Source: Verrucomicrobia bacterium IMCC26134
Lineage (GTDB): Bacteria; Verrucomicrobiota; Verrucomicrobiia; Opitutales; Opitutaceae
Assembly: GCA_000972765.1 (NCBI GenBank)
Contig: CP011265.1
Span: 558,001-622,000 of the forward strand
Length of the DNA stretch: 64,000 nucleotides
Direction of reading: 5' to 3'
Of this stretch, positions 1,613-34,475 are shown one piece after another. The notes beneath the pieces are model-generated. The model did not search any database. It saw only the letters and a program-made list of their open reading frames with translations, and was not told where the DNA came from. The translations under genes were made by a program, and so were the position numbers. The first letter of the stretch is position 1. The number at the start of each line of letters is the position of its first letter.

Positions 1613-4081
1613 CTAAAATCCAAAGGGAAGTTCGCGGGACACGGGGTCGATCTTGTAGCGGGCGGGGTCTTTGGCGGTCAGGATCTTGGCCGCGGCGTCT
1701 GGCGAGAGTGCGTCGTGGCGCTCGATCCAGTCGCGGGCGGACGGGTAGTCGCACTCCAGCCAGTTTCCCAAAAGCATGCCGAGGGCGTTTTCACGGGTTT
1801 TCGCGTCGGCGATGGTGGCGAGCAGATCGGCACGCCGCGCGTGGGTGATAGCGGTAGGTATGTTGATGCCGACCGTCTCGATGTCCAGATCTTGGGCTAG
1901 GGATTGGTAGGCGGTCAGACGCAGGTCTGGATCCGGGATGCTTTCAGCCCAGTGCATCAGCGCCTCGGGATCTTGGCGGGAAAGGCGGGTGCCGACGTTC
2001 TGGACTGCGAACAAGTGGTCGGCTGGGGTGGAGTTGGGTGCCCGGGATGCCATTTCGGCGGTGAGCTGACGTGCGGCGGCGGTGGGGTCGATCCCTGCCA
2101 GTCGGGCGATGATGGTATTCTTAACCTTGGGTGCGAAAGCGGCCGCGACGTCGGGAGCCGCGTGGGCGGCGAGCCAGGCGAGTGCGGAATCGGGATCGGT
2201 GCGGGCAAGGTTATTGGCGTAATCGCCGATCCAGTTGTTCCGGCTTTGGCCCTCGGGGAGCAATTCAAGGGCGGTGAAGAAATCAGGGGATAGGCGGAAG
2301 CTGAGCAGCTCGATGGTCCAGCTGACCATCTCGGTGCGCGCTTCGTCGGCAGGCCGATTTTTCAGCCAGGAGAGCGCGGCCTGCGGGTCCCTCATGGACC
2401 AATCGCGAACCGTGGCGGCCAAGGTGTTGCGTTGGCCTGGTAGATCGGGACGACTGACCAGCAGGTCGAGGAGGGGGCGAGCGGTGGTGGGGTCGTTGCC
2501 CGCGAGCCGTTGGAAAATCGAGGGTATGAGATCCTGGTAAATGTCGCCGTGCTCCTCGCGCAGGGAGATGATCCAGTCGAGGGCGGTCGAGGCGTCGGTT
2601 TTCATCCATCGGGCGATTGCGTCTCGGCTGGAAAACTGGAGGCCTCGTCGGGAATAAAGATCGACCGCGAATGTGCGGACGGCGGCGGCGGGGTCCTTTT
2701 TGGACCAAGCGTTGCAGAGGGCTTCGCTTGCGCCGGTGAAAAACTCGTCACCGCGAGCGCGGGCGAGCGCGAGAGCCCGCGACGGTTCTACGGGGATGAT
2801 CACGGCGAGGAGCTGGACGGCAAGGTCGCGGGCGAGGGCGGGGTCTTCGATGGAACCGGCCCAGGCGTAGGAGGCGTCGAAATCGTCGGCGGCCCAGATC
2901 GTGAGCGAGGTTTGGAGGTAGGAGACCCGCGCCTTGGCGTCGATGCTACCGGAGGGAACAAGCGCGAGCGCCCACCCGGCGGCGGCGGGGGCGTCGAGTT
3001 CGCTCCAGGCGGTGAAGGAGATAGAGCGGAGGCGGGCTTCGGGATCGCCGGGGCGCGTGGTGGTGGCAGATAGGAGCTGCGCGAAATGGTCGGCCGGGAG
3101 GATGGTAAGCAGGGTGCGCAGGCGGGCGGCGCGTTCGAGGAACCCGGCTTGGGTGGCGTCGGCGGCGAGGGGCGGGAGCGCGAGGTAGGCGCCGAGGGCG
3201 GCGGCGGCGTCTGCCGGGGCGAGGCGCGCGGGGCGCAGGAGCGCGGCGAGATCGGAGGCGGAAAGGGCGGGCGCGGTAGCGGCGACGATTTTGGCCGTGG
3301 CGGGCGGGTGTTGATAAAGGGATACGCCGACTGAGAGCACGGCGAGTGCACCGGCGATCGCGGCGGCGATTTTGACGGTGCTCATGAAGGTGGCGGTGGC
3401 GAAGCCGACAGCGGTCCCGACTGCGGTGGCATAGGCGGCGGCGAGCGAGGAGGTGGTGATGCTGGCGGCGAGGCCGGCGGGCGTGGCCGCGAGTGCTGGC
3501 TGGGCGAGCGCAATGCCGAGGGCGGATGCGGTGGAAACGAGGCCGCGACGGGCGAGGGTGGCGCGGAGTTTTTCGAGGGCGCGGTTCACGCGGACTCGGG
3601 CGGCGTCTTCGCTTACGGCGAGGGTGGCGGCAACTTCGGCGTAGGAACGGTTTTCAAAAAAACGCAGCAGGACGGCGGCGCGGTCGCGTTCGCCGAGGGT
3701 TTGGAGGGCGTCGTCGATCAGCGGGCGGAGGCGTTCCCAGTCGGCGTCAGGCTCGGGAGCGAGCTCGGTATCGTTCATCGCGAAGGCGGCTTGTTCGCGG
3801 GCATGGAGGCGGAGCTCGGTGCGTCGAAGTTCGGCGGCGGCGTGGCGCGTGGCAGTGTGGAGCCAGGCGACGAGCAGGGGGTGGTGGGAGAGCGCGGAGG
3901 CTTTGCGGGCGAGGTCGGTGAAGACGCGCTGGGCGACGTCCTCGGCGCGGTGCGGATCGCCGCCGGTCTGGCGGAGGGCGGCGTGATACACGAGGCTGAG
4001 GTGCCGAAGCACCAACTCGGCGAAGGCTTCCTGGGAGCCTTCGGCAGCGTAGCGGTGGAGGAGCGCGGCGTCATCATTCAT
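1613..4081 (-). CDS. ECF-type RNA polymerase sigma factor fused to membrane segment and long repeat domain
   Basis: The 822-residue product begins as a normal ECF sigma factor. Region 2 covers about residues 8-90, with GDPHRAEDVAQRVFTDLARK and a following Trp-Leu-His segment; region 4 covers about 115-178, with a helix-turn-helix around SYAEVAATLAVSEDAARVRV. An Ala/Thr-rich linker leads to one hydrophobic stretch at about 236-256, which should anchor the chain in the inner membrane. About 560 residues of helical repeats follow (units with W..DP.AAL.W), predicted outside the cytoplasm. ECF factors are usually near 200 residues, so most of this protein is extra. Large C-terminal extensions on ECF factors are known in Planctomycetes and Verrucomicrobia. 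I infer that signal sensing is built in rather than supplied by an anti-sigma factor; none is seen nearby. The downstream gene is a paralogue of the repeat part. Confidence 0.9.
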   Translation of the reverse strand: MNDDAALLHRYAAEGSQEAFAELVLRHLSLVYHAALRQTGGDPHRAEDVAQRVFTDLARKASALSHHPLLVAWLHTATRHAAAELRRTELRLHAREQAAFAMNDTELAPEPDADWERLRPLIDDALQTLGERDRAAVLLRFFENRSYAEVAATLAVSEDAARVRVNRALEKLRATLARRGLVSTASALGIALAQPALAATPAGLAASITTSSLAAAYATAVGTAVGFATATFMSTVKIAAAIAGALAVLSVGVSLYQHPPATAKIVAATAPALSASDLAALLRPARLAPADAAAALGAYLALPPLAADATQAGFLERAARLRTLLTILPADHFAQLLSATTTRPGDPEARLRSISFTAWSELDAPAAAGWALALVPSGSIDAKARVSYLQTSLTIWAADDFDASYAWAGSIEDPALARDLAVQLLAVIIPVEPSRALALARARGDEFFTGASEALCNAWSKKDPAAAVRTFAVDLYSRRGLQFSSRDAIARWMKTDASTALDWIISLREEHGDIYQDLIPSIFQRLAGNDPTTARPLLDLLVSRPDLPGQRNTLAATVRDWSMRDPQAALSWLKNRPADEARTEMVSWTIELLSFRLSPDFFTALELLPEGQSRNNWIGDYANNLARTDPDSALAWLAAHAAPDVAAAFAPKVKNTIIARLAGIDPTAAARQLTAEMASRAPNSTPADHLFAVQNVGTRLSRQDPEALMHWAESIPDPDLRLTAYQSLAQDLDIETVGINIPTAITHARRADLLATIADAKTRENALGMLLGNWLECDYPSARDWIERHDALSPDAAAKILTAKDPARYKIDPVSRELPFGF

Positions 4082-9130: not shown

Positions 9131-9952
9131 TCAGCCGCGCAGCCCGGAGAGCTGCATCAAACGGTTCGTCTGGTTGTAGGCTTCCTCGACCCATTCAACG
9201 ATACGTGAGGGGTCGGGCGAATACTCTAGCTCGATGGCCACAGTCCCGTCGATCTTGAGCTCCTTGATTGCTTGGAGGTAGGGTTCGAATTTAACGATGC
9301 CGCGGCCGGGCGGGAGGTCGCCATGGACCTTGCCGTCGCAGTCGCTGATGTGGACGTGGATGGCCTTGCCTTTGAGCTTCACCAGATCGCTCGGCATCGT
9401 GTCTGCGAGGACGAGGTGGCTGATGTCGATATTGGCACGGACGCGGGGGTGGCCGCACTCGTCCACGAAGGCGGCCATTTTCTCGACGCTGTTGAGCAGG
9501 CTGAGGCGGAAAGGCTCGAGCTCGAGGGCGATATCAACGTTCTTCTTGTCGGCGTAGTCACCCAGGGTGCGGCAGGTCTCGATCGCCCAGGCCCACTGCG
9601 CCTGGGGCGGAATGACTTCGCGTTGCCAGATGTATTCGCCGAGGACGAGGAGGATGTTTTTTGCGCCCCATTCGTGGGCGAGGTCGATGAAGGCTTTGCA
9701 GCGGGTGACGTGAAAATCACGCACGGGATCATTGAAATCGATGAGACCCGCGGCGACGACCACGAGCGAGGTGACCGGCAGTCGGTATTTGAGGCAGGTG
9801 TTTGCGACGATGCGTTTTTCCTCCGCGCTGATGCCGTAGGCTTCGGTAAAGATATCCACACAATCGAAGCCGATGCGGGATATATGGGCGAGGCCTGTGG
9901 CGGTGTCGACGCCGGCCTGGCCGAATGCGCTGTTGATGATGCCTAGTTTCAT
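9131..9952 (-). CDS. Sugar phosphate isomerase/epimerase, TIM barrel
   Basis: The 273-residue product starts MKLGIINSAF and has the fold pattern of the xylose isomerase-like TIM barrel family (AP endonuclease 2 superfamily), which includes D-tagatose/D-psicose 3-epimerases and inosose isomerases. Likely metal ligands can be seen: Glu in IALELEPF, Asp and His in NIDISHL, His in IHVHISDCDG, and Glu in VAIELEYSP. It should interconvert keto-sugars or keto-inositols in the cytoplasm using a divalent metal. It is the last gene of the run that contains the Gfo/Idh/MocA dehydrogenase (48-base gap) and the desaturase-Rieske-reductase fusion. The substrate cannot be told from sequence. Confidence 0.85.
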   Translation of the reverse strand: MKLGIINSAFGQAGVDTATGLAHISRIGFDCVDIFTEAYGISAEEKRIVANTCLKYRLPVTSLVVVAAGLIDFNDPVRDFHVTRCKAFIDLAHEWGAKNILLVLGEYIWQREVIPPQAQWAWAIETCRTLGDYADKKNVDIALELEPFRLSLLNSVEKMAAFVDECGHPRVRANIDISHLVLADTMPSDLVKLKGKAIHVHISDCDGKVHGDLPPGRGIVKFEPYLQAIKELKIDGTVAIELEYSPDPSRIVEWVEEAYNQTNRLMQLSGLRG

Positions 9953-10000: not shown

Positions 10001-11089
10001 TCAGGTGCCGGGATGAATTTCAGTCAGGGCCACTGCCCGATGCTCGGCCGCGCTGCGATAAGCTGCCTCGACGAGAGCCATGGTTTTGAGGTTGTCGCGA
10101 CCGGAGATGGCGGGTGTGGCGCCGGTGGCGAGCGCGGTCAGGAGCTGGCCCATGGTGCCGGCGAAGGCGTCAGGGAACCAGCTCTCGTTCCACGTCGGCT
10201 CGTGGAAGGCGGTGTCGCCTTTCACGGCATAGCGGATGCTCGATGGGGTGGTATAGGGAGTTTTCACCCAGCCGATGTCGCCCATGGCGAGTCCGTCGAG
10301 GCCCTCGATGCGCCAGCGGATGCCGAGGTCGGCGGGGCAACCTTCGCGAGCAGGACCGGTCCAGACGTCGTCTATGACCGTGCAGCGCAGGCCGCCGGCG
10401 TATTCAAGAATGTAGGTCGCGATACCGTCGGTGTGGGCAAATTTTGTGCGCGGATCGGGCCGTGTGCTGCAATAAATGCGCTCCGGGTCGCCGAACCAGT
10501 AGCGAAGGCAGTCGATATGGTGAATGGACATGATGCGCAGGGTGACCCAACCGAGTTTTTCCTGCCATGGCATGAGATGCGGGATGCCGCGCATATCGAT
10601 GCTGGCGAAGACGGGCATGCCAAGCGCACCCTGATCCAGGAGCGACTTTGCGGCGCGCACCGATTGGTCGTAACGCATGTTCTGGTTTACGGCGAGGGTG
10701 ATGCCCGCCCGCTCGCAAAGCTCCACTGCGCGCACGGCCTCGGCGTAGTCATTGCCGATCGGCTTTTGAGCGAGAATGCCCTTCACCGTGCCCCGTTTGC
10801 AGGCACCTTCGATAAGACCTAGCTGGGCGTCGGGTGGCACGGCAATGTCGAGCACCTCGATGGTCGGGTCGTCGAGCAATTCAGCGTAGCTGCAAACCTT
10901 GGGGATGCCGTGGCGCGCAGCGGTCTTCGCCGCTGATTCCGGTGTGCGTGAGGCGATGGCGACGGGGTTGTAGCCTGCTTTGCGATAGCTGGGCAGGTGG
11001 CAGTCGCTAACGATAAAGCCGCTGCCGATAATGCCGATGGGGTAGTCCTTTTTAGGAGGCGAAGGCGGGGTGATCTTCAGGTCGTGCAT
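10001..11089 (-). CDS. Gfo/Idh/MocA family NAD(P)-dependent sugar dehydrogenase
   Basis: I place the start at the ATG at 11089 (MHDLKIT), 22 bases after the upstream stop; an ATG at 11146 would overlap the upstream gene. This gives 362 residues. A Rossmann motif (IGIIGSGFIVSDCHLPSY) opens the protein, a QKPIGNDYAEA segment replaces the usual EKP motif, and IHHIDCLRYWFG matches the family HxxDxxRxW pattern near the active site. The family oxidises or reduces hydroxyl groups of sugars and inositols with NAD(P). MocA itself belongs here and acts in rhizopine breakdown, which fits the Moc-like fusion two genes upstream. Substrate unknown. Confidence 0.87.
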   Translation of the reverse strand: MHDLKITPPSPPKKDYPIGIIGSGFIVSDCHLPSYRKAGYNPVAIASRTPESAAKTAARHGIPKVCSYAELLDDPTIEVLDIAVPPDAQLGLIEGACKRGTVKGILAQKPIGNDYAEAVRAVELCERAGITLAVNQNMRYDQSVRAAKSLLDQGALGMPVFASIDMRGIPHLMPWQEKLGWVTLRIMSIHHIDCLRYWFGDPERIYCSTRPDPRTKFAHTDGIATYILEYAGGLRCTVIDDVWTGPAREGCPADLGIRWRIEGLDGLAMGDIGWVKTPYTTPSSIRYAVKGDTAFHEPTWNESWFPDAFAGTMGQLLTALATGATPAISGRDNLKTMALVEAAYRSAAEHRAVALTEIHPGT

Positions 11090-11111
11090 TGGGGTGGGGT
11101 AGTGGTTTTTA

Positions 11112-12017
11112 TTAATCTGATGCGTGCCGTTTCTTGGCTTCAGCAAAACAGGCGCGCGCGATGTCGTTATAGACTAGTGCCTCACGATAGCGGTCGCTTT
11201 CCTCAATAAAGCCGCCCGTGCCATTGGGGAAACGCCTCGCGTAGTAATAGGCGCCGGAAAGCAGTTCCGGGCAAAAAACAAGGCAGTCGCCACGACCTGC
11301 ATTGCGGAGAAAACCGAGCATGGCGTGGGTCCAGAGCGATTTGAAATCGTCGAGGAAATTGACAACGCCATGAGCGGCGGGCGGGCGTCCCTGACCATCG
11401 CCAATCGAGACCTGCATGCAGCCCGAGCTGCCGATGCGGCCGTGCATGAAGGCGACGCGCTCGAAGATTGGGGCCATGAAGGCGAGCTTCGTGGGCATGT
11501 CGCCGTAGGCTAGCTCTTGACCGGTGTAGAAGTGGCTGAAGTCGCCATTGAAACGAACATCGGGGAAACGTTTGGTGAGTTGCACCGTGCGCCACAGGTC
11601 CTGCGTGATGGTGGCACGGTGGGTTTCGATGAAGACTGGCAACGAATGGCGTTGAGAGGCGCGCAGAATGGCATCGACCAGAAAGTCGATTTCGGCGTCA
11701 TCCTCCAGTCCCCATCCGACATGGAGTGTGACGCAGTCATGCCCGAGGGCGGCGTGGCGTGCGATGACGGGATCGGCCTCGGCGGGGAGATTGACGCGAT
11801 CCGATCCGCAATGGCGCAGGCTCGTGCCGCCTGGCGCAGGCGAGGAGTCGACGCATTGCACGCCTTGAAAACCATCGGCGTCGAGGCGTTTGTCACGGGC
11901 CGCACCGGTGAGGCCGGGCCAGAGTGAGTCCGGCCTGAGGTCGTCGAGGTTGGCGAGGTTAATGTAGGCGAGAAGTTTGGGGGAGTCGGCGGAACCGTCG
12001 TTGACGTAGGAAGGCAT
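11112..12017 (-). CDS. TIM-barrel sugar isomerase-like protein (MocC-type context)
   Basis: The 301-residue product has the xylose isomerase-like TIM barrel pattern. VFIETHRATITQDLW, FNGDFSHFYTG, FMHGRIGSSG and FCPELLSGAYYY supply candidate metal-binding Glu, Asp/His, His and Glu at the ends of successive strands. I expect cytoplasmic isomerisation or epimerisation of a sugar or inositol derivative. It begins 2 bases after the stop of the desaturase-Rieske-reductase fusion, so the two are almost certainly translated from one message. It differs clearly from the second TIM-barrel protein downstream (9131-9952), so they are unlikely to be redundant. Confidence 0.8.
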   Translation of the reverse strand: MPSYVNDGSADSPKLLAYINLANLDDLRPDSLWPGLTGAARDKRLDADGFQGVQCVDSSPAPGGTSLRHCGSDRVNLPAEADPVIARHAALGHDCVTLHVGWGLEDDAEIDFLVDAILRASQRHSLPVFIETHRATITQDLWRTVQLTKRFPDVRFNGDFSHFYTGQELAYGDMPTKLAFMAPIFERVAFMHGRIGSSGCMQVSIGDGQGRPPAAHGVVNFLDDFKSLWTHAMLGFLRNAGRGDCLVFCPELLSGAYYYARRFPNGTGGFIEESDRYREALVYNDIARACFAEAKKRHASD

Positions 12018-12019
12018 AA

Positions 12020-14305
12020 TTAAAATTCGTCGAAAGCAATTTGGCGGTCGGGAACGCCAAGGGTGGCGAGCATTTTGGTGACGGCGCGGATCATCATCGG
12101 CGGACCGCAGAGGTAGTATTCAACCGCCTTTGGGTCGCGGTGCTCGCGCAAGTAGTGATCGAGCACGACATCATGGATGAAGCCGGTGTGACCGTTCCAT
12201 TTGTCCTCTGGCAGGGGGGAGGACAAGGCGAGGTGAAAGGTGAAGTTCGGATGCGTTTCAGCGAGTCCTTCGAAATAGTCCCCGTAGTAGATTTCCTGCT
12301 GCGAACGCGCGCCATACCAGAAGCTCACGCGGCGGCGGGTGTGCTCGGTCTCGAAGAGGTGGGAGAGGTGGGCGCGCAGCGGGGCCATGCCGGCGCCGCC
12401 ACCGATGTAAACCATCTCGCGTTGTGTGGGTTTGATGTGAAAGTCGCCGAACGGGCCGATGGCGGTGAGGCTGTCGCCGGGTTTCAGGCTGAAAATATAG
12501 GCTGAGCCGATTCCGGGCCCGCAATCCTGGCCAGGGGGAGGCGTTGCGATGCGAACGTTAAAGCGCAGCGTGCGTTCGAGCGATTGGTTGCTGGCGAGGG
12601 AGTAGTTATTGCGCCGGCCTGGCTCGGTGTTCCGCGCTTCGAGGTCGAAGACGTGTTGATTGCGCCAGACGGAGGCATAGGGCTCGGGAATAGCAAAGTC
12701 GGCGAAGCGGATTCTTTCGTAAATCGGTATGTCGATTTGGAGGTAGTCGCCGGGGGTGAAGGTCACTTTTTCAGCCGGGTCGATAGGTTCTAACACGAGC
12801 TCTTTGATGAAAGTGGCGACGCTGTGATTGCTGACCACACGTAAATGGAGAGTCTTTTGTGTGCGGACGCCGCAGTCCCGGGATAAAGTGACGTTGAGCC
12901 TGATACGACCGGCGCGTTCCTCGACGGGATAGGTGGCGAGACCTCGGCAGATCGGTGCGCGGGCGGGTGAGCCGTCGGCGAGAAAGAAGCGACCGTTGTG
13001 CTTCGGACACTCAATGATGTTATCCTTTACCAATCCCTCGGCCAGATGGGTGTTGCCGTGGGTGCACATGCCATCGGTGGCGTAGAGCGCGCCTTTTTCG
13101 TCACGGACGAGGGCGTAGGTTCTTCGTCCGTGATCAAAGCGCATGACATCAGCCCGGCCGAGATCTGCCGACGCGCAGACGTCTAGCCAGCCATCTGCGT
13201 CGGGAACGGCGTGTGCGTCATGCGCGTTCGTTTTTTCACGGGCTTTCGGCGCAGGAAGTGAGCGTTTAACATGGTATGCCGGGTCTTTGACCTGACGCAG
13301 GACAGCGGGGATGATTTCGCGCCATGCGGAAACTAGACCGGGATAGGCCACCGGCATATCTTCCTTTACTGCTTCGTGCAGGCTGGGCAGCGCGTGGTAG
13401 GGGACCAGCGGGAACATGTGGTGTTCCACATGGTAATTCATGTTCCAATACAGAAACCGGTTTATCGGGTTCATGTAAACCGTGCGGCAGTTAAGGCGAT
13501 GATCCAAGACGTTCTCGGCCAGACCGGTATGCTGGGTGAGACCGTATATGAGCATTAGCCAGGTGCCGAAGAGGTGAGGCAGGCCGACGAAAAGCACCGG
13601 CAGGATGCTCTTGGAGGCAAGGGCTGTGATCAAAGTCGCCGCATAGATCGCCACGTAGAGGCGCGCTTTGCGGTATATTTTCGGAAACTCGCTTTCAGGG
13701 ATGTAGGTTTTCTCGTCAGCGCTCATTTTACCAAACGAGTGCATAACGACATGTTGAAAATATTTTGGATAAACCGGCAGGCCGAAGAGTGCCTTGGCGA
13801 GACCCTTGAGGTCAGGTGGGCGAGGCACGGCGATCTCGGGGTCACGGCCAACGATGATCGTGTCGCTGTGATGGCGGGTGTGACTCCATCGCCATACCGT
13901 TGATTCGCGCATCACCATGAATGATGCGATTTCGTAGAGCACGTTGTTCATCCAATCGGTCTTGAACGCCGTGCCATGTCCCGCCTCGTGCCAGCGGGAG
14001 TCTGACGTCGAGCCGTAGAGCGTGGCATAGGCGAAATAGGGCGCAAGCGCCCACCACGAGGGCCAGAGCATGCAGGTTGCGGCGGCGGCGGATAGGATAA
14101 GGGCGAACCAGATGATCGTGTCTCTGATGGCCGGCCCGTCCTTGCGTTCGAGGAGTTTGCGCATGGTCGAGCGCGGCACGGGGCATTGATACCAATCGGC
14201 CTCGGCGAGACCTCGCTCGATGGCACGGGAGGCGTTTTCGCCGGTGAGACTGTAGTCCAACTTGGTAGGCGGCTTGAGAAAGACAGCCGTGGGTTCGTGG
14301 CTCAT
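12020..14305 (-). CDS. Three-part oxygenase: fatty acid desaturase-like / Rieske [2Fe-2S] / NqrF-like flavin reductase fusion
   Basis: The 761-residue chain joins three modules. Residues about 50-345 are a membrane di-iron domain of the desaturase/hydroxylase family, with hydrophobic segments near 64-100 and 215-255 and histidine boxes HEAGH (106-110), HTRHH (142-146) and HVEHH (292-296). Residues about 370-470 are a Rieske ferredoxin with CTH at 414-416 and CPKH at 433-436. Residues about 485-761 match the flavin and NADH domains of NqrF: RNNYSLAS (565-572), GGGAGMAPLRAH (635-646), YGARSQQE, CGPPMM (733-738) and an acidic Asp-Glu-Phe end; the plant-type ferredoxin domain of NqrF is absent. 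Electrons would flow NADH to FAD to Rieske to di-iron. Rhizobial MocD, MocE and MocF supply comparable parts as separate proteins. With a MocA-like and two isomerase-like genes downstream, O-demethylation of a sugar or inositol is the favoured inference; lipid hydroxylation is the alternative. Confidence 0.9.
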   Translation of the reverse strand: MSHEPTAVFLKPPTKLDYSLTGENASRAIERGLAEADWYQCPVPRSTMRKLLERKDGPAIRDTIIWFALILSAAAATCMLWPSWWALAPYFAYATLYGSTSDSRWHEAGHGTAFKTDWMNNVLYEIASFMVMRESTVWRWSHTRHHSDTIIVGRDPEIAVPRPPDLKGLAKALFGLPVYPKYFQHVVMHSFGKMSADEKTYIPESEFPKIYRKARLYVAIYAATLITALASKSILPVLFVGLPHLFGTWLMLIYGLTQHTGLAENVLDHRLNCRTVYMNPINRFLYWNMNYHVEHHMFPLVPYHALPSLHEAVKEDMPVAYPGLVSAWREIIPAVLRQVKDPAYHVKRSLPAPKAREKTNAHDAHAVPDADGWLDVCASADLGRADVMRFDHGRRTYALVRDEKGALYATDGMCTHGNTHLAEGLVKDNIIECPKHNGRFFLADGSPARAPICRGLATYPVEERAGRIRLNVTLSRDCGVRTQKTLHLRVVSNHSVATFIKELVLEPIDPAEKVTFTPGDYLQIDIPIYERIRFADFAIPEPYASVWRNQHVFDLEARNTEPGRRNNYSLASNQSLERTLRFNVRIATPPPGQDCGPGIGSAYIFSLKPGDSLTAIGPFGDFHIKPTQREMVYIGGGAGMAPLRAHLSHLFETEHTRRRVSFWYGARSQQEIYYGDYFEGLAETHPNFTFHLALSSPLPEDKWNGHTGFIHDVVLDHYLREHRDPKAVEYYLCGPPMMIRAVTKMLATLGVPDRQIAFDEF

Positions 14306-14404: not shown

Positions 14405-15454
14405 TCAATCGCAGGAAAAGGCGTAAACTGTGGTATGTCGTCGAGGTTGGCCCGGCTGAACGATGATGTCTCCGAGCTCCGGAACGTTTACGCTGTCGGG
14501 GTAGCCTTCGCACTCGAGGCAGAAGCCGTGATGCTTTGCGTAGCGAACTCCGGATTTCCCTATCAGCGAACCATCTAGGGCGACGCCGGAGTAAAACTGA
14601 ATACAGTCCTCGGTCGTGAGCACTTCCATTACGCGACCGCTGCACGGTTCTTTCACTCGCGCAGCAGGCAGTAGAGACACGTGATCGTCCGCCGGCCGAT
14701 TGACAAAATACAAGTCGCCATGCGCGCCGACGATAGATGGCAAGACATCGCCTATACGCCTGAACTGGCGAAAGTCGCCGCCCTGTTCGACTGATGATTT
14801 CCGCCCGAGCAAGGTCATCGCACCATCGGTGGGAGCGAAGGTTGCTGCGAAAACCTGCAGTTTGTGGCCGGTTACGTCGCCCGCATTCTCGCCCGCCAGA
14901 TTGAAATAAGAGTGATGGGTGAGACTTGCCGGAGTGGCACGATCGGAGGAAACCTCGGTTGCGAAAATAAATTCGTTCCGATCGGTCAGTGTAAGAGTGA
15001 CCCGGGCTTTCACGTGGCCGGGATATCCCTCCTCTCCATCCGCACTCTCCAGCGTTAGGCACACTGAATCGGCGCCATCTGGACGTGTGACCGGTTCGGC
15101 GGTCCATAGTTTCTTGTCGAAGCCGGCTGGACCGCCGTGGAGATGATTTGGCGGATCGTTTCGAGCCAGTTCATAAGTGCGACCATTGAGCGCAAAGCGG
15201 GCGTCGGTGATTCTGCCTGCTACACGCCCGGCGACCGCCCCGAAAAAAGGGTGCGCTCCAAGGTAGGGTTCAAGTGTTTCGAAGCCGAGGACTACATCCC
15301 CGACTTTACCCGTGCGATCGGGTATGCGCAGGTGGGTAACTATGCCTCCGTATTCCATTACCTCCAGCGAGCTCCCGGAAGTGTTTTTCAATAACCAGGA
15401 TCGCACGACCCTGCCGTCGGGAAGCGTTCCAAATATACGCGAGGTGGACATCAA
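14405..15454 (-). CDS. galM: Aldose 1-epimerase (mutarotase)
   Basis: The 349-residue product has the galactose mutarotase fold signature: NHLHGGPAGFDKKLW with the first catalytic His, LTHHSYFNLAGE with the second His, IQFYSGVAL, and FCLECEGYPDSVN with the catalytic Glu. It interconverts alpha and beta anomers of aldoses such as galactose. Two adjacent ATG codons (15454 and 15451) could start it. There is no obvious signal peptide, so it is probably cytoplasmic, which differs from secreted mutarotases in some glycan loci. It lies 99 bases upstream of the fusion gene on the same strand, within the carbohydrate run. Confidence 0.9.
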   Translation of the reverse strand: MMSTSRIFGTLPDGRVVRSWLLKNTSGSSLEVMEYGGIVTHLRIPDRTGKVGDVVLGFETLEPYLGAHPFFGAVAGRVAGRITDARFALNGRTYELARNDPPNHLHGGPAGFDKKLWTAEPVTRPDGADSVCLTLESADGEEGYPGHVKARVTLTLTDRNEFIFATEVSSDRATPASLTHHSYFNLAGENAGDVTGHKLQVFAATFAPTDGAMTLLGRKSSVEQGGDFRQFRRIGDVLPSIVGAHGDLYFVNRPADDHVSLLPAARVKEPCSGRVMEVLTTEDCIQFYSGVALDGSLIGKSGVRYAKHHGFCLECEGYPDSVNVPELGDIIVQPGQPRRHTTVYAFSCD

Positions 15455-15887: not shown

Positions 15888-17831
15888 TTAGGGCGGAGTG
15901 ATGCGGGCGAGCAGACCGTCGATCAGGGCCATGGTTTGCACCGACAGGTGATTTTCTGGCGCGGATTTAGCGGAGGCGTCCAGGGCCTTGGCGAACAAAA
16001 GCTCTTTCGCATCATGAATTGCGTCGTTCTCCGTGAGTTCGGCGACGGTGCCTGTCTTGCCGGAGAAACGCGCGGTGAGTTCGTCGCCGATCCAGAGCCG
16101 CCAGTCGGGTTCGTCGGCAAAATACACCGCGAGCACGCCGCCGTTTGCGACTCCAAGCTGCGTGGCTAGGGAGCGCATGTAGGCCCCTGGTTTGGCATCC
16201 TCATCGGCGGAGGGCGATTTGGGGTGAAAGCGCACGAGCACACGAATCCCGGTGGTCTTTTCGAACGTTGCGAGTTTTGACTGCAAGGTCTCAAGCTGCG
16301 CAGAACCTGCTGGCAGGATATGCGACGAATCCTCCACGTGTGATTTTGTGGCCGATGGCTTGGGTATCTCCGCTTCGGGTGACCAGGCGGCGGGACCGCC
16401 GGGTGTTTGACCGAGGAAACGTGCCCCGGTTTTTTGATACCAGCTATGAAGATTTTCTCTCAGTTCACCGACCAGCGGTGTTTTTTTCGAAGCGCGGTCC
16501 ACTTGTTCGCCCGGATCATCGTTCAGATTGTAGAGGGCAACGGAACCGTCCTCATAGTTTTCGATCAGTTTCCAGTCGCCCCGGCGAATGGCTCCGCCCG
16601 GGAAGCCGCCTTGATTGCTGTAGTGCGGGTAATGCCAGTAGAGCGCATCGCGCGCAGGGGGTGCGTCGCCGCGAAGGAGGGGCAGCAGGTCCATGCCGTC
16701 GATGGCTAGGCCGGCCGGCGGATGTTGCCCGGCGGCGGCGAGCGCGGTCGTGAATATATCGGTGCTCATCACCGGCGTCTCCACGGTGCGGCCGTTAAGC
16801 TTGGCGGCGGGCAGTCTGATGATGAAGGGCTCCTTTATCCCGCCTTCATAAACCCAGCCTTTTCCGCCACGATAAGGAAGATTCGAGGTTGGCAGGCCCT
16901 CGGCGGTGGAAAGCCCGCCATTGTCGGAGGTGAAGATGACCAGCGTGTTATCCGCCAGTCCCAGCGAGTCGAGCTTGGCCAGCACCCGGCCCACGGCAGT
17001 GTCCATCGACTCAACCATGGCGGCGTAGGTCGGCTGGCCTTGGACCGTGCGAACGTTTCGCGGAGATTTTGCGGAGACCATGTATTGCGTCTCCATGACA
17101 TATTGATCCTTGAGCCCGAGTCTTGATGCTTTCGCGGTGTATTTATCGATCAAGGCTTGGGGGGCCTGAAGGGGAGTGTGGACGTCGTAGAGGCTCAGTT
17201 GCAGGTAGAAGGGGGAGCCGCCCTTTTTGAACCGCTCGAGCAGACGCGTTGTCTCATCGGCCAGACGCTCGGTGAGGTTTTCGCCTGGCGGACCATCCTC
17301 CAGGCGGGGGTTTTTGTAGGGAGAAAAGTAACTTGCAGGATGCCCGGCCGACCAGCCGCCGATATTGATGTCGAAGCCCTGGGCTTCGGGCCAGTAGGCG
17401 GGCGACTCGCCCAGATGCCATTTGCCGACGAAGGCGGTGGCATAGCCGGCTGGTTTGAGTAACTCGGCCAAAGTCGTTTCCGCAGGCTCCATCGCGTGGG
17501 CAAGCGGTGCGCTCAGGAATCGTTCATTGCGGACTCCCGGCAGCCAGTTGGTGAGGCCGGCGCGAGTCGGGTAACGACCGGTCATGATGCTGTAGCGGGT
17601 GGGGCTGCAGACCGGGTTGGCGGCGTAGCCATTGGTGAAGCGAGCCCCTTGATGCGCCAACCGGTCAAGGTTCGGCGTTTCGTAAAAGGTGTGCGGGTTG
17701 TAGCACCCCACATCCATAACCCCGAGGTCGTCGGCGACGATCACGAGCACATTTAATGGCGGGGTGTCCGCAACCGCACGCGGACTACAGCCGATCGCAG
17801 CGACTAAGATGATCAGGAAGCGTAGATTCAT
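15888..17831 (-). CDS. Secreted sulfatase with C-terminal TPM-like domain
   Basis: The 647-residue product begins with a signal peptide (about 1-22; Cys15 could be a weak lipobox). The sulfatase domain covers about 25-470: the metal-binding Asp-Asp pair in VADDLGVMD, the formylglycine motif CSPTRYSIMTGR with Cys75, GKWHLGESPAYWP, FTSDNGG and PFIIRLP. Cys75 implies maturation by a formylglycine-generating enzyme; none is in the window. Residues about 500-645 form an unrelated domain with KLATFEKTTGIRVLV and GGVLAVYFADEPDWRLWIG, which resembles the TPM domain found in membrane-anchored or periplasmic proteins. Sulfatases hydrolyse sulfate esters, so the target glycan is likely sulfated. The tail is unusual for the family. 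Confidence 0.9.
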   Translation of the reverse strand: MNLRFLIILVAAIGCSPRAVADTPPLNVLVIVADDLGVMDVGCYNPHTFYETPNLDRLAHQGARFTNGYAANPVCSPTRYSIMTGRYPTRAGLTNWLPGVRNERFLSAPLAHAMEPAETTLAELLKPAGYATAFVGKWHLGESPAYWPEAQGFDINIGGWSAGHPASYFSPYKNPRLEDGPPGENLTERLADETTRLLERFKKGGSPFYLQLSLYDVHTPLQAPQALIDKYTAKASRLGLKDQYVMETQYMVSAKSPRNVRTVQGQPTYAAMVESMDTAVGRVLAKLDSLGLADNTLVIFTSDNGGLSTAEGLPTSNLPYRGGKGWVYEGGIKEPFIIRLPAAKLNGRTVETPVMSTDIFTTALAAAGQHPPAGLAIDGMDLLPLLRGDAPPARDALYWHYPHYSNQGGFPGGAIRRGDWKLIENYEDGSVALYNLNDDPGEQVDRASKKTPLVGELRENLHSWYQKTGARFLGQTPGGPAAWSPEAEIPKPSATKSHVEDSSHILPAGSAQLETLQSKLATFEKTTGIRVLVRFHPKSPSADEDAKPGAYMRSLATQLGVANGGVLAVYFADEPDWRLWIGDELTARFSGKTGTVAELTENDAIHDAKELLFAKALDASAKSAPENHLSVQTMALIDGLLARITPP

Positions 17832-26476: not shown

Positions 26477-28408
26477 TCAGAATCCGAAGTTCAGGCCAGC
26501 GTTGATCACATTGTCGGTTCGATCACCGTTATCCAGGGCACGGAGATAATTCGCGTAGATCGAAGTGCGGTCGCTTACATAATAGGTCGCTCCAAGGGTG
26601 ACACGGACTTGATCCGGGTTTTCGTTGATCGGGGCGATGGTGAATGAGCTTACCGGACCCAGGCCGGAGAAGTAGGCGGTCACAGTTTTGCCGTCGGTAT
26701 ATTCGTGGACCCACTCGGCGGTGATCCGGGGCACAAGGCGGTGACCGGCGACGGTAAATTCATGCTCGGCATAGCCGCCCACAATGGTTCGGACGGAGTC
26801 TTGATCGTAGGCCGGCACGGTGAGGTCGAGAGCCCCTGCGCCAGTCTCTGAAGTGTTGTTGGCTTGAACACGGAGATACTGGGCCTGGGCCGTGCCGCCG
26901 TATGCCAGTCCTTTCCACTTCATGGGGACGATGATGCGCAAAGAGGCGCTACCCATGTCTTGGGATACGTCGCTGCTTGCTACCGGGCCGCCCAGGTCGC
27001 GGGCTTGGTCAAGTTCGGCCCTGGCGTAGCTGAGCAGGCCGTCGACCATGAAATTGGGGTTTATCATGCTGGACCCATAAAGGGTGAGCGAACGGGTGTG
27101 GCCTTCCAGGCGGCTATTGAAGATGGCGTCGCCATCGGTTTCATAGGTTTCCTTGTCTCCGAGCGCAAGGCCGAGGTGGGTCTTTGGGGAGAAGGCGTAG
27201 TCGATGCCGGCCAAAGCACCCCAATTGTTGCCGCTGCCGCCGTTAGGGTTGGTCGCAGTGGCTTCGAGATCGGAGGTCGAATTGATGCCTTGGGCAAAGC
27301 CGCTCCACGGTCCGGAATCGTTTGCCCTGCCGCTCGCGCCAGCGGTCTGGTGATCTAGGAACTCGCGATGCATGTAGTCGAAGCGGGCGTTTAAGTTGAA
27401 CGTGTAGCTGTAGGCACCGCGAATGCTGGACCTCGTCGCACGGGGGTAGCTTTCGCCTTGCAGCACGCGCACGCGCCGGAAAAACGATGCGTCTCCGCCG
27501 GAACTCAGCTGGCTGAAAACCTCGGATACCTCCGCGTTGTTGCGAACAAGCGGGGAGAGGGCGTTGGAGAACGATGCGAAGGCGGGTCGGGCGGAGAGTT
27601 CGACCAGGCCCACATTAATGTTTATCGTGCGGATCAGGCTGTCGATAAAGGATTGGGTGAAGGAATCGGCAGTCAGGCCCCCTTCTCTCAGCGCGTTCAG
27701 ATCGGCGACCAGTCCGCCGTTTTGAAGGGTAGGCTGCGAGTAATCGACCAAGGTGGTGTCATCGGTTGCTGCGAGCTGTCCATTATCGATCTTAGTGAAC
27801 CCCCCGTTTCCGTCGGCTATGAAAATCCGATTTTGGGAGTTGATGACCAAGGCGCCGGACACCGCTTGATTGTTCGAATCAAGAAATTGCTGATTTAAGA
27901 TCGAGATCAGCGTGGCCTTGGACGATGACAGTGCATTGAGAATCGAGACAGCGCTCGCCCCGGAAGCGGAGTCTAGCACGTCCCGGTCCTCGTCGGTCAC
28001 TAGCACTATCACTGGCAAGGCGCCGCTTCGGAATGTATAGTTGTTCAGGGCATAAAGAATGCCAGCATAGCCGTCCTCGGTGCCTCCCGAGGTTTCGAGG
28101 GTGCCTGCGGCAGTTTGGAAGTCGGAAACAGTGCCGAACTGGCCGCTACCGACGACAAAGCCGTGTGGCTCTGGATCGCCCGCGCCAAAGCCTACCAAGG
28201 CGTAGCGGCTTCCTTGAACACTCACCCCCTGCAACCCCGCCTCGATCGATGGTATCTGCGCCTGCAGGAAGTCTTGCTCTCCCGACATCGACCCCGATTC
28301 ATCCACTACAAATATGAAATCTGCCGACCGGGCAGCGAATACAGGCAGGGAGAACGCGACGAGTGCCGCGGATATGATCAATACGTTTTGTATTTTTTTG
28401 GTGTTCAT
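26477..28408 (-). CDS. Autotransporter with von Willebrand factor A passenger domain
   Basis: The 643-residue product has a signal peptide (about 1-28, ending FAARS). Residues about 29-280 form a von Willebrand A domain: DFIFVVDESGSMSGEQ carries the metal-ion adhesion site DxSxS, with a later Thr in the GTEDGYAGI region and VIVLVTDEDRD. From about 360 to the end is an outer-membrane beta-barrel of autotransporter type, with alternating amphipathic strands (LGLALGDKETYETD, VDGLLSYARAELDQ) and a terminal Phe (NAGLNFGF). The passenger would be displayed on the surface and could bind a protein or matrix ligand. A von Willebrand A domain as passenger of a classical barrel is uncommon. The gene stands alone, with a 277-base upstream gap. 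Confidence 0.88.
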   Translation of the reverse strand: MNTKKIQNVLIISAALVAFSLPVFAARSADFIFVVDESGSMSGEQDFLQAQIPSIEAGLQGVSVQGSRYALVGFGAGDPEPHGFVVGSGQFGTVSDFQTAAGTLETSGGTEDGYAGILYALNNYTFRSGALPVIVLVTDEDRDVLDSASGASAVSILNALSSSKATLISILNQQFLDSNNQAVSGALVINSQNRIFIADGNGGFTKIDNGQLAATDDTTLVDYSQPTLQNGGLVADLNALREGGLTADSFTQSFIDSLIRTININVGLVELSARPAFASFSNALSPLVRNNAEVSEVFSQLSSGGDASFFRRVRVLQGESYPRATRSSIRGAYSYTFNLNARFDYMHREFLDHQTAGASGRANDSGPWSGFAQGINSTSDLEATATNPNGGSGNNWGALAGIDYAFSPKTHLGLALGDKETYETDGDAIFNSRLEGHTRSLTLYGSSMINPNFMVDGLLSYARAELDQARDLGGPVASSDVSQDMGSASLRIIVPMKWKGLAYGGTAQAQYLRVQANNTSETGAGALDLTVPAYDQDSVRTIVGGYAEHEFTVAGHRLVPRITAEWVHEYTDGKTVTAYFSGLGPVSSFTIAPINENPDQVRVTLGATYYVSDRTSIYANYLRALDNGDRTDNVINAGLNFGF

Positions 28409-29765: not shown

Positions 29766-32700
29766 TTAACCACCGGAGTTAACCGGTGCGGTGTAGTTGG
29801 GCAGGGCGGCGGGTGTGGCCTGTGAGCCGATGGCGATGTTGCCGCGTGCGTTGTTGTCGAACTGGGTGGTATAATCCAGCGGTTGGCCGCCGTAGGTCAC
29901 TCCGCTGAGGAAGTTGACCCGACCGACTGTCGGGCTGCCCCAATGGGGATAGATGCCGGTGCCGGTGGAGCCATCGGCGGTGCCGCCATCGCGCGAGTTG
30001 AGTGCAGCGGTGGTGCCCTCAGGGAAGTCGATATTCGAGAGGTTGATGGTGATGGCATCCATCAAGATGCCGCGGGCATTGGCGGAGAAGCGGGTGTTGT
30101 TCAGGTCGATGAGATCGCCGGCAGCGAGGCTGATGTTGGCGATATGGTTGCCATCGACCTTAAAGGTATCGGAGCCCGAATTGGTGGTGGAGTTGTCGAT
30201 ACGAAGACGGCGGACTGCTCCGACGTAGAGGTCGGACGCGGATTCGAAGCCAACCTGGATCATCGATCCGTTGGCGTTGGCGGTATCCTTGTTGAAGGGG
30301 AAGAAGTAGCTGGTGTGGTCCTTGTGGGTCTTGCCGTCGCCCATGTTCTCGTCGATGCGCTGGGTGTCGACACGGACGGAGAGAGGTAATGAATTGTAGG
30401 CGGATAAGAGGCGCTGGATGCCGGAATAGTCGGTGCCGAGGAAACCGACATGATCGGATCCAATGATGCCTAGGCCTCGGAGGGTGGCCTGCTCGGACGT
30501 GGAGAGATTTTGGTAGAAGCCGATGGCGTTACCTAGGGCCGAGGTCTTGTCCAAGAGCGTGGTGCCGTCCAGGTAGCCCTCGAAGAGGATGGCCCGGGCA
30601 AGATCAAGGTCGAGCAGGGTGCCATAGTTTACGCCAGGGCTGTTGAGAAGAGATGCGATGTCCGAGAGAGAGCGGGAGGCGTGGCCTTCGCTGTCGGTGA
30701 AGCCGGAGGCGGAGCTCAGGATCGGGAGCAGGTCATAGTGCTCGGCCTCGGCGAGCAGGTAGTTTTTCACGTTGGGGCTGAGTCCGAGGTAGGCATTTAG
30801 GGCGCCGGTGACCTTGGGCTGAATCGTGGCCTCGTTGGCGTCGGGGTTGAAGTAGGGGTAAAGATACAGATCACGAAGAGCCTCTTTTTGAGCCGTAGAC
30901 AGTCCGAGGTAGTAGTTGGTGATGCTGGCGGTGCGGACGGGGTCGATCAGCACGGCTGCGAGACCGAGGGCGCGGGCGGCGGATTGTTGATCCGGGGTGA
31001 GCGAGTTATAGTGGCTGATGATGGCGTTTATATTGCCCAGCAAGGTGGGTTCATCGGTGTCGAAGAGGATGTCGCTAGTCTCGAAGCCAAGGCTGGCCAA
31101 GGTGTCGAAGTCAGCCGGACGTGACTGCCAGAGGGTGTCGAGGTAGTCGAGGCGGGTATAGATTGAGGACGCGTTGCCTGAGTTGCTTGCGAGCAAGCTG
31201 GCCAGGAAGTAGGGGTCCAGGTTGAAGAATTTCACGATTGCGCGCTCGGCGGGGTTGGCGTCTTTGGCTGCCTCGATTGCATCGGACAGCGCGCTGTCGT
31301 TGACTAGATTGTGGAGGTGGCCACCCCAACCGGCTTCGCCGATGGCGGCGAGGTTCGCGGTGGCGGCGGCGAGCAGACCTTGAATATAATCAGGCTGCAG
31401 GCCGACGAGGGTATCGCCGGCGCCGAGATTGATGAGAGCGGTTTGTATGCCACCGGATAAGCTGAAGAAGTTGGCTGCGGCAGAATCAATCGCCGAGGTG
31501 CTCCAACGCACGATGTCGGGGGCACCGTCAGGGTTGGGCAGTCCTGAGCCGTTTGCGCCGCCGAGAGCTTTGAAGAAGGCGCGGCCTTGGGTGGAGAGGG
31601 CGACGTAGGCGTCCAGGTGACGCTCGGTGGTAACGGAGGTAAGGGGCAGGGCATCCTGCCAAGTGGTTGAGAGGAGTGTGCCGGTGATGTCAGGGTCGTT
31701 CAAGGCGACGAGCTTGATGCGCACGGCGGCGGGGAGTTTACTGAAGACGTCGAACTGGGCGGGCGTGAGCGAGGCGATGAAGGACTGGTCGGTGCTGGGG
31801 GAAGGGTTAAGCCCATCGGCAAAGCTATGGATCGCGATGGCGCCGAAGGAGCCGTTCACGAACGCCGAGGCACTATCGAGGATCGTGTCGCCATAGAATA
31901 CTCCGCCGAGGAAGTTGACCCGGCCAATGATGGGTGAGCCGAAGTTTGGCACCCACATGCCGGAGTAGTAGGTGGCGCGACCGTCGCGAGAGATCAGGTT
32001 CACGATGCTGCGTGCGGGGAAATTGACGTTGGCGAGGTTAAGCGTGATCGCCTGCATCGTGAGGTAACGGGTGCTGGCGCTGAAGGTAAACGGGGTGTTG
32101 ATTAGGCCGTTGAGCGATATCTCGTCGCCTGCGAGGAGGCTGACCGTGGCTGCGGCGGAATTAATGTTTTTATAGCCGGTGCCGATGTTTGCGGTATTGC
32201 TCAGCCGGAGGAAGCGGGTGGCACCGATAAAGAGTTCATTGCTACCCTCTGCGTCACCGAAGATGCCATTGTAGATGGTCTGGCCGCTGGCGCCGGTGGT
32301 GCCAGGGAAGAATGTATTATCAGAAACCACGGGGTGAGCTGCGTCGGCGGTGAAGTTGGTCTCGGAGAGAGGGAGTGGAGCCGAGATTTCCATGTCATAG
32401 TAGGTGTCAAGGAGGCGGACCAGACCCTGGCCGTTGGCCCCTACGGCGGTGAGGTTGGCATTGCCGAGGATGCCGAGGTCGACAGCCTGGGAGCGCCTGT
32501 CCGAACTTAGGCCGTCATAAAGGTTGATCGTATCGAGCAGTGCGTTGCTAAAAGCAGAGTCGTAGAATTTTTCCTGAAAGAGAGGGTCGGTGTCATTGAA
32601 ACCGCCGCGGGTGAGTATCTCGGAGAAGGCCGTCGACTGGGTGGGGCTGAGGTTAGACAAGAATACTTCGTAGGCTGTAGGAGGCGGGGTGTATGAGGGC

Positions 32701-34475
32701 TCGTAGGGGAACAGTCCGTCGGCGAAGGAGTGGATGCCGATGTTGCCGCGAGAACCGGCGGCGAAAGCGGTGGCGTTGTCGAGCAGGGTATCTCCGTAGT
32801 AGACTCCGCTTAGGAAATTGACGCGTCCGATGACGGAGTTACCGAAGTTTGGAACTTTCGTGCCCGAATAGTCGTAGCCGCCATCACGGGAGATCAGGAC
32901 CGAGACGCTGCCTTCAGGAAAACGGACGTTTGCAAGATTAAGGGTGATCGCCTGCATGTAGATGGCCCTTGTGTTAGCGCTGAACGTGACAGGGTAGTTG
33001 GCGGCGCCGTTAAGGGAGATTTCATCGCTGGCGAGCAATCCGACATCGCCGCCTGAATTGCCGGTTTCGAATGCTGCGTTGGTGCCAACTGCGGCCGCTA
33101 ATCTTAGCGGGCTGGATGGACTGGTGATGAAGTTGATGTATTCGGCGTCGATGTTGGCGTTATTAGCGATGCGCAGGAAGCGGGTGGCACCGATGAGGAT
33201 GTCGTCTGGGACCTCGGAGTCGCCGAATTGCGTGTTGTAAACGGTCTGGCCGCTGGAACCGGTCGCGCCTGAGAAGAAGATATTATTTTGCGCGATGATG
33301 TGAGTGGCGTCGGACGTAAAGGTGTCTTCAGCGAGTTTATCGGGCGTCGCCCCATCAAAATCGTAGTAGGTCTCCAGCAAACGTTGCAGACCCTCTGAGT
33401 CCGCACCCACCGCGCTAAGGTTGGCTTCGCCAAGGATGCCGAGATCGAGCAACAACTGGCGCTGGCTGAAGTTGAGTGGAGCGTAGAGATCGATGGTATC
33501 GATCAGGCTCTCGACGAACTCCGGACGGGTGAACAGAAGCCTGAATGAAGGGTCGCTCTGGTCGAAGCCACCTTTGTCAACGATCTCATCAAAGGCGATT
33601 TTTTGTGCGTTGGTGAGGGTTGCGACAAAGGACTGGAGTTGATCGACGGCCGGTAGAACATTGCTCGCCTCCTTGTTGTTGCCTGACTGGGTGTCGGAGT
33701 TCTTGGGCGCGGTGTCTACGGGCTTCAGGTTGGTGCCCGTGGTGTCGATGCCGAAGCTTTGCATGAGCTCGAGGGCCTGGCTGATTGCTTCGGGGTTTAT
33801 GGTGACACCGGCGGCGGTGGCGGATTCGAGCGCGGCCAGAGTGCTCTTGGCGACAGACTGGGCCAGCGCCTGGTCGTCAGCGGAGAGGTCACCCAGCCTA
33901 GATGCGGAACGGACAGCGCCAGAAACGTCGGTGATATTGATCTGGCCGGCAGTCACGGAGAGCTGGCGACCATCGAGAAGGGTAAAGCTGATCGTGCCGT
34001 GGGAAACCAATATGGTCTCTATCCCGGCGGCGTTGACGTTGACGGTGTAGTTGGTGCCTCGGGCGCCGGCGAGACCCCGGGGGGTGCGGATGTTGTAGTC
34101 GTAGGTGACGCCCTCTTGTTTGATCAAGTCGGTGACGATCGCTCCCTGCTTAAGATTGAGGGTCGCGGCGGTGATGGTGGTGCCGTCTGGCGCTTTGGTC
34201 TCGGAGGCTTTTTCTATCACCAGATCGCTGTTCGGGCTGATGAGCGATTTCACGCCGGGCATCGGCGTGAGGGCTACTCTTCCATCTGCACCAGTCACGA
34301 TTCGCGTGCCTAGGGTTATGACCTCTCCTTTTGTGATGGGATGTAGATTAACTTCACCGGGGGCTTGGAGCTCGGCTTTGCCGGTGGAAAAAATGACCCT
34401 TACGGTCTGGGCTGAAAGACTTAGTGTAGCGAGGGCGGTAAGGGCGAAAACGAGGAGGAGGTTTTGTAGTCGCAT
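29766..34475 (-). CDS. Giant secreted FecR-domain protein with internal repeats
   Basis: The 1569-residue product has a signal peptide (about 1-22, ending LSAQT). Residues about 25-190 are a FecR-like beta domain: ITKGEVITLGTRIVTGADGR, LKQGAIVTDLI, YNIRTPRGLAGARGTNY and VSHGTISFTLLDG. A Gln/Asn/Ser-rich linker leads to at least three diverged repeats, at about 287-590, 607-895 and 1320-1560. Each runs from helical units through GATRFLRI-type, QAITLNLANVxFP, LISRDG and IIGRVNFLxGVxYGD motifs. Between repeats two and three lies a long helical stretch with DYLDTLWQSRP-like units. No catalytic motif was seen. It is probably periplasmic or surface-exposed and may be structural or sensory. The outer-membrane barrel gene follows directly. 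Confidence 0.85.
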   Translation of the reverse strand: MRLQNLLLVFALTALATLSLSAQTVRVIFSTGKAELQAPGEVNLHPITKGEVITLGTRIVTGADGRVALTPMPGVKSLISPNSDLVIEKASETKAPDGTTITAATLNLKQGAIVTDLIKQEGVTYDYNIRTPRGLAGARGTNYTVNVNAAGIETILVSHGTISFTLLDGRQLSVTAGQINITDVSGAVRSASRLGDLSADDQALAQSVAKSTLAALESATAAGVTINPEAISQALELMQSFGIDTTGTNLKPVDTAPKNSDTQSGNNKEASNVLPAVDQLQSFVATLTNAQKIAFDEIVDKGGFDQSDPSFRLLFTRPEFVESLIDTIDLYAPLNFSQRQLLLDLGILGEANLSAVGADSEGLQRLLETYYDFDGATPDKLAEDTFTSDATHIIAQNNIFFSGATGSSGQTVYNTQFGDSEVPDDILIGATRFLRIANNANIDAEYINFITSPSSPLRLAAAVGTNAAFETGNSGGDVGLLASDEISLNGAANYPVTFSANTRAIYMQAITLNLANVRFPEGSVSVLISRDGGYDYSGTKVPNFGNSVIGRVNFLSGVYYGDTLLDNATAFAAGSRGNIGIHSFADGLFPYEPSYTPPPTAYEVFLSNLSPTQSTAFSEILTRGGFNDTDPLFQEKFYDSAFSNALLDTINLYDGLSSDRRSQAVDLGILGNANLTAVGANGQGLVRLLDTYYDMEISAPLPLSETNFTADAAHPVVSDNTFFPGTTGASGQTIYNGIFGDAEGSNELFIGATRFLRLSNTANIGTGYKNINSAAATVSLLAGDEISLNGLINTPFTFSASTRYLTMQAITLNLANVNFPARSIVNLISRDGRATYYSGMWVPNFGSPIIGRVNFLGGVFYGDTILDSASAFVNGSFGAIAIHSFADGLNPSPSTDQSFIASLTPAQFDVFSKLPAAVRIKLVALNDPDITGTLLSTTWQDALPLTSVTTERHLDAYVALSTQGRAFFKALGGANGSGLPNPDGAPDIVRWSTSAIDSAAANFFSLSGGIQTALINLGAGDTLVGLQPDYIQGLLAAATANLAAIGEAGWGGHLHNLVNDSALSDAIEAAKDANPAERAIVKFFNLDPYFLASLLASNSGNASSIYTRLDYLDTLWQSRPADFDTLASLGFETSDILFDTDEPTLLGNINAIISHYNSLTPDQQSAARALGLAAVLIDPVRTASITNYYLGLSTAQKEALRDLYLYPYFNPDANEATIQPKVTGALNAYLGLSPNVKNYLLAEAEHYDLLPILSSASGFTDSEGHASRSLSDIASLLNSPGVNYGTLLDLDLARAILFEGYLDGTTLLDKTSALGNAIGFYQNLSTSEQATLRGLGIIGSDHVGFLGTDYSGIQRLLSAYNSLPLSVRVDTQRIDENMGDGKTHKDHTSYFFPFNKDTANANGSMIQVGFESASDLYVGAVRRLRIDNSTTNSGSDTFKVDGNHIANISLAAGDLIDLNNTRFSANARGILMDAITINLSNIDFPEGTTAALNSRDGGTADGSTGTGIYPHWGSPTVGRVNFLSGVTYGGQPLDYTTQFDNNARGNIAIGSQATPAALPNYTAPVNSGG

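Follow-up and report, generated by a model that had tools for sequence, protein, structure and literature searches.

On the minus strand of the window (the whole stretch of 64,000 nucleotides that was analyzed), positions 12020–14305 hold an open reading frame with an ATG start and no internal stop codons, encoding a 761-residue protein in which a MocD-type di-iron oxygenase, a MocE-type Rieske domain, and an NqrF-type FAD/NAD reductase follow one another. All window features given below with coordinates lie on this same strand.

Architecture and predicted structure of the fusion protein

An earlier note on this DNA had read the chain as a fusion of desaturase, Rieske domain, and NqrF-type reductase, and every part was confirmed by Pfam and NCBIfam profile searches. 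Residues 82–323 (13337–14062) matched the FA_desaturase family PF00487 (E 2.5e-36; 126 bits, cut-off 29.7) and carry three histidine boxes, H106EAGH110 (13976–13990), H142TRHH146 (13868–13882), and H292VEHH296 (13418–13432), placing this part in the FA_desaturase superfamily of membrane di-iron enzymes; the NCBIfam arginine hydroxylase model GntB also matched it weakly. A linker of variable length (residues ∼348–372; 13190–13264), apparent as length differences in the alignment, leads to the Rieske domain (residues 373–460; 12926–13189; PF00355, E 7.6e-17), which contains the ligand pairs C414-x-H416 and C433-x-x-H436. Against the MocE family model (TIGR02377), residues 373–472 scored 110.3 bits, below the curated cut-off of 136.15, and by that model the Rieske part classifies as a relative of MocE rather than a member of the family. 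The reductase (residues 484–761; 12023–12856) scored 337 bits with the NCBIfam nqrF model (TIGR01941; cut-off 295), yet the match covers profile positions 128–403 only. Within it, NAD_binding_1 was recognized at residues 634–743 (E 8.2e-18) and FAD_binding_6 at residues 550–623 with a score slightly below cut-off (20.2 bits; cut-off 21.1), and the flavin motif NYS (567–569) and the nucleotide motifs GGGAGMAP and CGPP are present. Classification as a classical Rieske nonheme oxygenase was rejected, as the Pfam matches include no mononuclear-iron catalytic alpha-subunit domain and the Rieske part resembles stand-alone ferredoxins.

The fusion shares with NqrF of Na+-NQR the FAD/NAD half (45–50% identity; structural Z about 35) but has neither the N-terminal membrane anchor nor the plant-type ferredoxin of that subunit. 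The plant-type 2Fe-2S motif, found in 15/15 genuine NqrFs examined, is missing from the fusions, so the fusion falls outside NqrF as defined by its N-terminal 2Fe-2S domain. A genuine NqrF was not found elsewhere in the genome from which the window derives, which makes this reductase a dedicated one; together with the missing anchor and ferredoxin, this led us to reject a role as a component of Na+-NQR. An AlphaFold2 model of the whole protein was of moderate confidence (pLDDT 79.6; pTM 0.72). Its C-terminal part matched the FAD domains of NqrF (Z 35), and residues 369–761 superposed on whole NqrF 43–406 (Z 34.7), so that the Rieske domain is modeled roughly at the position of NqrF's own ferredoxin. 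The oxygenase part modeled alone (pLDDT 75.2) gave Z 16–17 to two chains of chloroplast motor complexes. Its match to the alkane hydroxylase FtAlkB (Z 8.4) is distant and in a range that can reflect a common arrangement, though it agrees with the sequence family; the match to SCD1 was weak (Z 3.8), and a PDB sequence search with the oxygenase part returned chance matches only.

Recurrence, conservation, and origin

Homologs were sought in 57 related genomes and in 388 genomes sampled across the phylum. The full-length fusion occurs in 27/388 of the latter, without internal stops and at 54–78% identity, and in a scan of contigs the best 80 loci all span essentially the whole protein. These 80 loci belong to Verrucomicrobiota and Acidobacteriota, plus one planctomycete and one Rhodothermota (Rhodothermales) metagenome-assembled genome (MAG); two fusion loci come from cultured Acidobacteria isolates, Acidobacteriaceae KBS 89 (L138) and Terracidiphilus gabretensis S55 (L152). 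A frameshift or assembly join, named in the earlier note as a possible source of the fusion, is thereby rejected, the same full-length arrangement recurring at about 100 loci, cultured isolates included.

Ligand conservation was read from alignments of 28 and 76 full-length homologs. In both, few residues depart from the histidine boxes, Rieske ligands, flavin NYS, and nucleotide motifs: boxes 2 and 3 and the four Rieske ligands are invariant, box 1 is altered by a single H106Y among the 76 proteins (locus L148), and a few changes occur at R565, Y568, G636, and P736. Conservation of these ligands and motifs at 53–78% identity rules out chance. The cofactor-binding motifs on which the earlier reading was built are shared by the homologs, and, the one H106Y apart, the loss of Rieske or histidine ligands that could have undone it was not seen in these alignments. 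The H106Y protein (L148:5741–8002), the sole fusion in the 76-row alignment with an altered histidine-box ligand, has a complete corrinoid methyltransferase set next to it; loss of activity is one possible reading of the change, a sequencing error in a MAG another.

The resemblance to rhizobial MocD, MocE, and MocF pointed out in the earlier note holds for two of the three proteins. Compared with the separate proteins of a moc-like cluster of Phyllobacterium zundukense, the oxygenase part is 56% identical to MocD and the Rieske part 52% identical to MocE, whereas its MocF, a Pyr_redox_2 reductase, shares no similarity with the fusion. The two systems share the order of MocD-type oxygenase then MocE-type Rieske protein and have sugar isomerase and Gfo/Idh/MocA genes nearby; they differ in that the rhizobial proteins are encoded by separate genes and in that an NqrF-type module takes the place of MocF, which sets the fusion apart from a MocDEF system. 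With free-standing MocD and MocE as the closest relatives of its first two parts, and with MocF unrelated, the fusion has exchanged the type of reductase, and a Rieske domain occupies the place of the ferredoxin native to NqrF.

The same phylum also contains separate MocD and MocE genes (L053, L076, L078, and L079) and two-part MocD–MocE fusions (L077 and L080–L082). A quick tree built from the oxygenase part places 41 three-part fusions in one group (SH-aLRT 99) that also includes a single split gene, and in a quick tree of the reductase part the fusions are split from genuine NqrFs of the phylum at SH-aLRT 100. Since the fusions form one clade on both trees, the three-part arrangement most likely arose once and was later passed between phyla. 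The split gene within the clade (L079; G420:C1:4023470–4024402) has separate MocD and MocE, a pattern that loss of the reductase would produce; its branch is long, and its placement in the tree is unsure.

Gene neighborhood

In the window, an aldose 1-epimerase of the galM type (14405–15454; PF01263, E 1.6e-67), the fusion, a TIM-barrel isomerase/epimerase-like gene (11112–12017; PF01261, weak and below cut-off), a Gfo/Idh/MocA dehydrogenase (10001–11146; PF01408, E 1.8e-15), and a second TIM-barrel isomerase/epimerase (9131–9952; PF01261, E 7.1e-35) follow one another on a single strand, separated by short gaps. The first TIM-barrel gene begins 2 bp past the fusion stop and matches no NCBIfam family. 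Judged by the ortholog at locus L052, the dehydrogenase probably starts at the ATG at 11089; its best NCBIfam score was with inositol 2-dehydrogenase, below cut-off. Both the dehydrogenase and the second TIM barrel recur beside the fusion at L052, L072, L110, L132, and L143. Upstream of the cluster lie a sulfatase and a GH43-like gene; the neighborhood also includes a GH2 gene and a symporter of the RhaT type. The sulfatase (15888–17831) has the active-site motif CSPTR and about 150 additional C-terminal residues without a Pfam match. The operon in the window contains no C1 gene, and neither RACo nor a glutathione formaldehyde dehydrogenase scored above cut-off in the genome. Elsewhere in the window, a 1569-residue protein has FecR as its sole recognized domain (29769–34475), an 822-residue protein begins with 175 residues of ECF sigma factor followed by 650 without a Pfam match (1613–4081), a von Willebrand A domain is fused to an autotransporter beta-barrel (26480–28408), and a 706-residue reading frame has no Pfam match (39442–41559).

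Gene context was counted within five genes of 102 fusion loci, with gene clusters named from representatives. The TIM barrel was found at 38/102 loci and galM at 33/102, usually adjacent and on the same strand, followed by AraC-type regulators (25), sugar porters (13), URO-D (12), and Gfo/Idh/MocA genes (9); at least one recognized sugar gene was present at only 70 of the 102. The TIM barrel is the commonest +1 neighbor, directly downstream of the fusion at 35 loci, an aldose mutarotase lies immediately upstream at 23/102, and rhamnose-mutarotase-like genes occur at 3. With a mean of about two galM copies per genome, galM was located ≤3 kb from the fusion in 10 of 29 genomes, as compared to ∼0.08 expected. 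One of these 10 neighbors (G056:C168:649–855), directly before the fusion, is an N-terminal fragment only, perhaps of a decayed copy.

Methyl-transfer genes accompany some fusions. G013 has a single RACo gene and two non-hemE URO-D genes, all three at most ∼6 kb upstream of the fusion; in G200, URO-D and RACo genes lie within ∼11 kb downstream of one fusion; and L148 holds URO-D, RACo, DUF1638, MtaB, and a corrinoid protein. L117 and L148 were picked for their methyl-transfer genes and serve as examples, not as a sample, and URO-D proximity was assigned no probability because copy number ranges from 0 to 39 per genome. Around unfused rhizobial mocDEF, a panB-like gene follows in three records (L164, L181, and L182) and purU in one (L164). 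In Pseudomonas syringae, a xylose isomerase gene comes after mocDEF (PMC5132102).

Proposed reaction and comparison with known systems

The conserved architecture and ligands bear out the earlier proposal of a self-contained membrane oxygenase, and no characterized ortholog with another role was found in open-access PMC literature; papers directly on this fusion were likewise absent from the open-access literature searched. We infer the self-sufficient layout strongly, and the substrate and reaction with moderate confidence. Our preferred reading, with somewhat better than an even chance of being right, is that the fusion is a self-sufficient, NADH-driven membrane di-iron monooxygenase whose natural reaction is most likely oxidative O-demethylation of a methylated monosaccharide or a close relative. 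NADH would reduce the FAD of the C-terminal NqrF-type module, which would pass single electrons to the Rieske cluster, the stand-in for NqrF's plant-type ferredoxin, and from there to the histidine-ligated di-iron site. This site would activate O2 and hydroxylate the methyl carbon of a sugar ether; collapse of the resulting hemiacetal would release formaldehyde and the free sugar, which the co-encoded mutarotase, TIM-barrel isomerases, and Gfo/Idh/MocA dehydrogenase could then process. A single protein that removes methyl groups from decorated sugars is the probable reading, given how widely the fusion occurs and its conservation in operons for sugar degradation.

The earlier note proposed no substrate; gene context suggests methylated sugars. 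Rhizopine, 3-O-methyl-scyllo-inosamine, is a methyl ether, a methylated inosamine, and Bahar et al. (1998) reportedly proposed that MocDEF demethylates it, itself a model. Methyl removal is indicated by the place of mocDEF in rhizopine catabolism and the rhizopine-inducible mocD promoter (PMC10107442), by the corrinoid methyl-transfer genes at some fusion loci, and by the C1 genes that trail mocDEF, which fit disposal of formaldehyde via folate. Counting against an O-demethylase are the presence of a sugar gene at only 70/102 loci, the window operon without a C1 gene, the lack of RACo and of an above-cut-off glutathione formaldehyde dehydrogenase in its genome, the moderate confidence of the structural model, and the H106Y substitution at the sole locus with a full corrinoid set (L148). 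Membrane di-iron enzymes usually act on hydrophobic substrates, and free sugars are polar; GntB, the arginine hydroxylase model weakly matched by the oxygenase domain, shows that this rule is not absolute.

The same domains and sugar context would also fit hydroxylation or desaturation of a C–H bond of a sugar, cyclitol, or glycolipid by a self-sufficient membrane oxygenase that removes no methyl group. FA_desaturase relatives hydroxylate polar compounds, as represented by the GntB model, and the oxygenase fold distantly matches that of the alkane hydroxylase AlkB, but such an enzyme would not account for corrinoid methyl-transfer genes close to the fusion, for C1-folate genes behind mocDEF, or for the link to methylated rhizopine, and we regard it as possible but rather unlikely. 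The nearest studied relative acts in the catabolism of rhizopine, a methylated inosamine, and the best score of the window's Gfo/Idh/MocA protein, with inositol 2-dehydrogenase, was below cut-off; both would suit an oxidative demethylase of an N-methyl or methylated-cyclitol compound. The aldose mutarotase just upstream at 23/102 loci and the rhamnose-mutarotase-like genes at 3 point instead to aldoses and make a non-aldose substrate improbable. A self-sufficient lipid-modifying enzyme, a fatty-acid desaturase or hydroxylase only incidentally located in a sugar operon, would agree with the name of PF00487 and with the hydrophobic membrane-type segments of the fusion; given that the closest relatives are MocD proteins (56%), that the SCD1 fold match is weak, and that the neighbors serve sugar catabolism and not lipid synthesis, it is very improbable.

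Algal, plant, and microbial polysaccharides commonly contain methylated sugars. With a probability we place just short of even, the fusions, with MocD and MocE ahead of an NqrF-type reductase where NqrF has its anchor and ferredoxin, form a widespread and hitherto undescribed class of sugar O-demethylases that are self-sufficient membrane di-iron enzymes. If so, they would allow methylated polysaccharides to be opened aerobically without a P450 and would provide a second solution to aerobic demethylation, conserved across two phyla of complex-glycan degraders, as well as a gene family open to direct testing and a compact natural electron chain for biocatalysis. The fusion also illustrates how the flavin module of a Na+-NQR subunit could be recruited to drive an oxygenase. 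Aerobic removal of sugar O-methyl groups was found in searchable open-access papers for one enzyme only, a P450 of marine Flavobacteriia proposed to demethylate 6-O-methyl-D-galactose and encoded in a polysaccharide-use cluster (PMC10033563). This P450 shares with the proposed role of the fusion the oxidative removal of the methyl group but is a heme enzyme with separate ferredoxin and reductase. The layout of the fusion is not a new category, since a ferredoxin–reductase–AlkB fusion of other make (ferr_ferrR_AlkB), which is self-sufficient and has been expressed and found active, precedes it (PMC8918992). Both are three-part self-sufficient membrane di-iron oxygenases; ferr_ferrR_AlkB has N-terminal carriers, an AlkB hydroxylase, and an alkane substrate, whereas the fusion described here has C-terminal carriers, one of them a Rieske domain, and a MocD-type oxygenase, and thus lies outside the ferr_ferrR_AlkB type.
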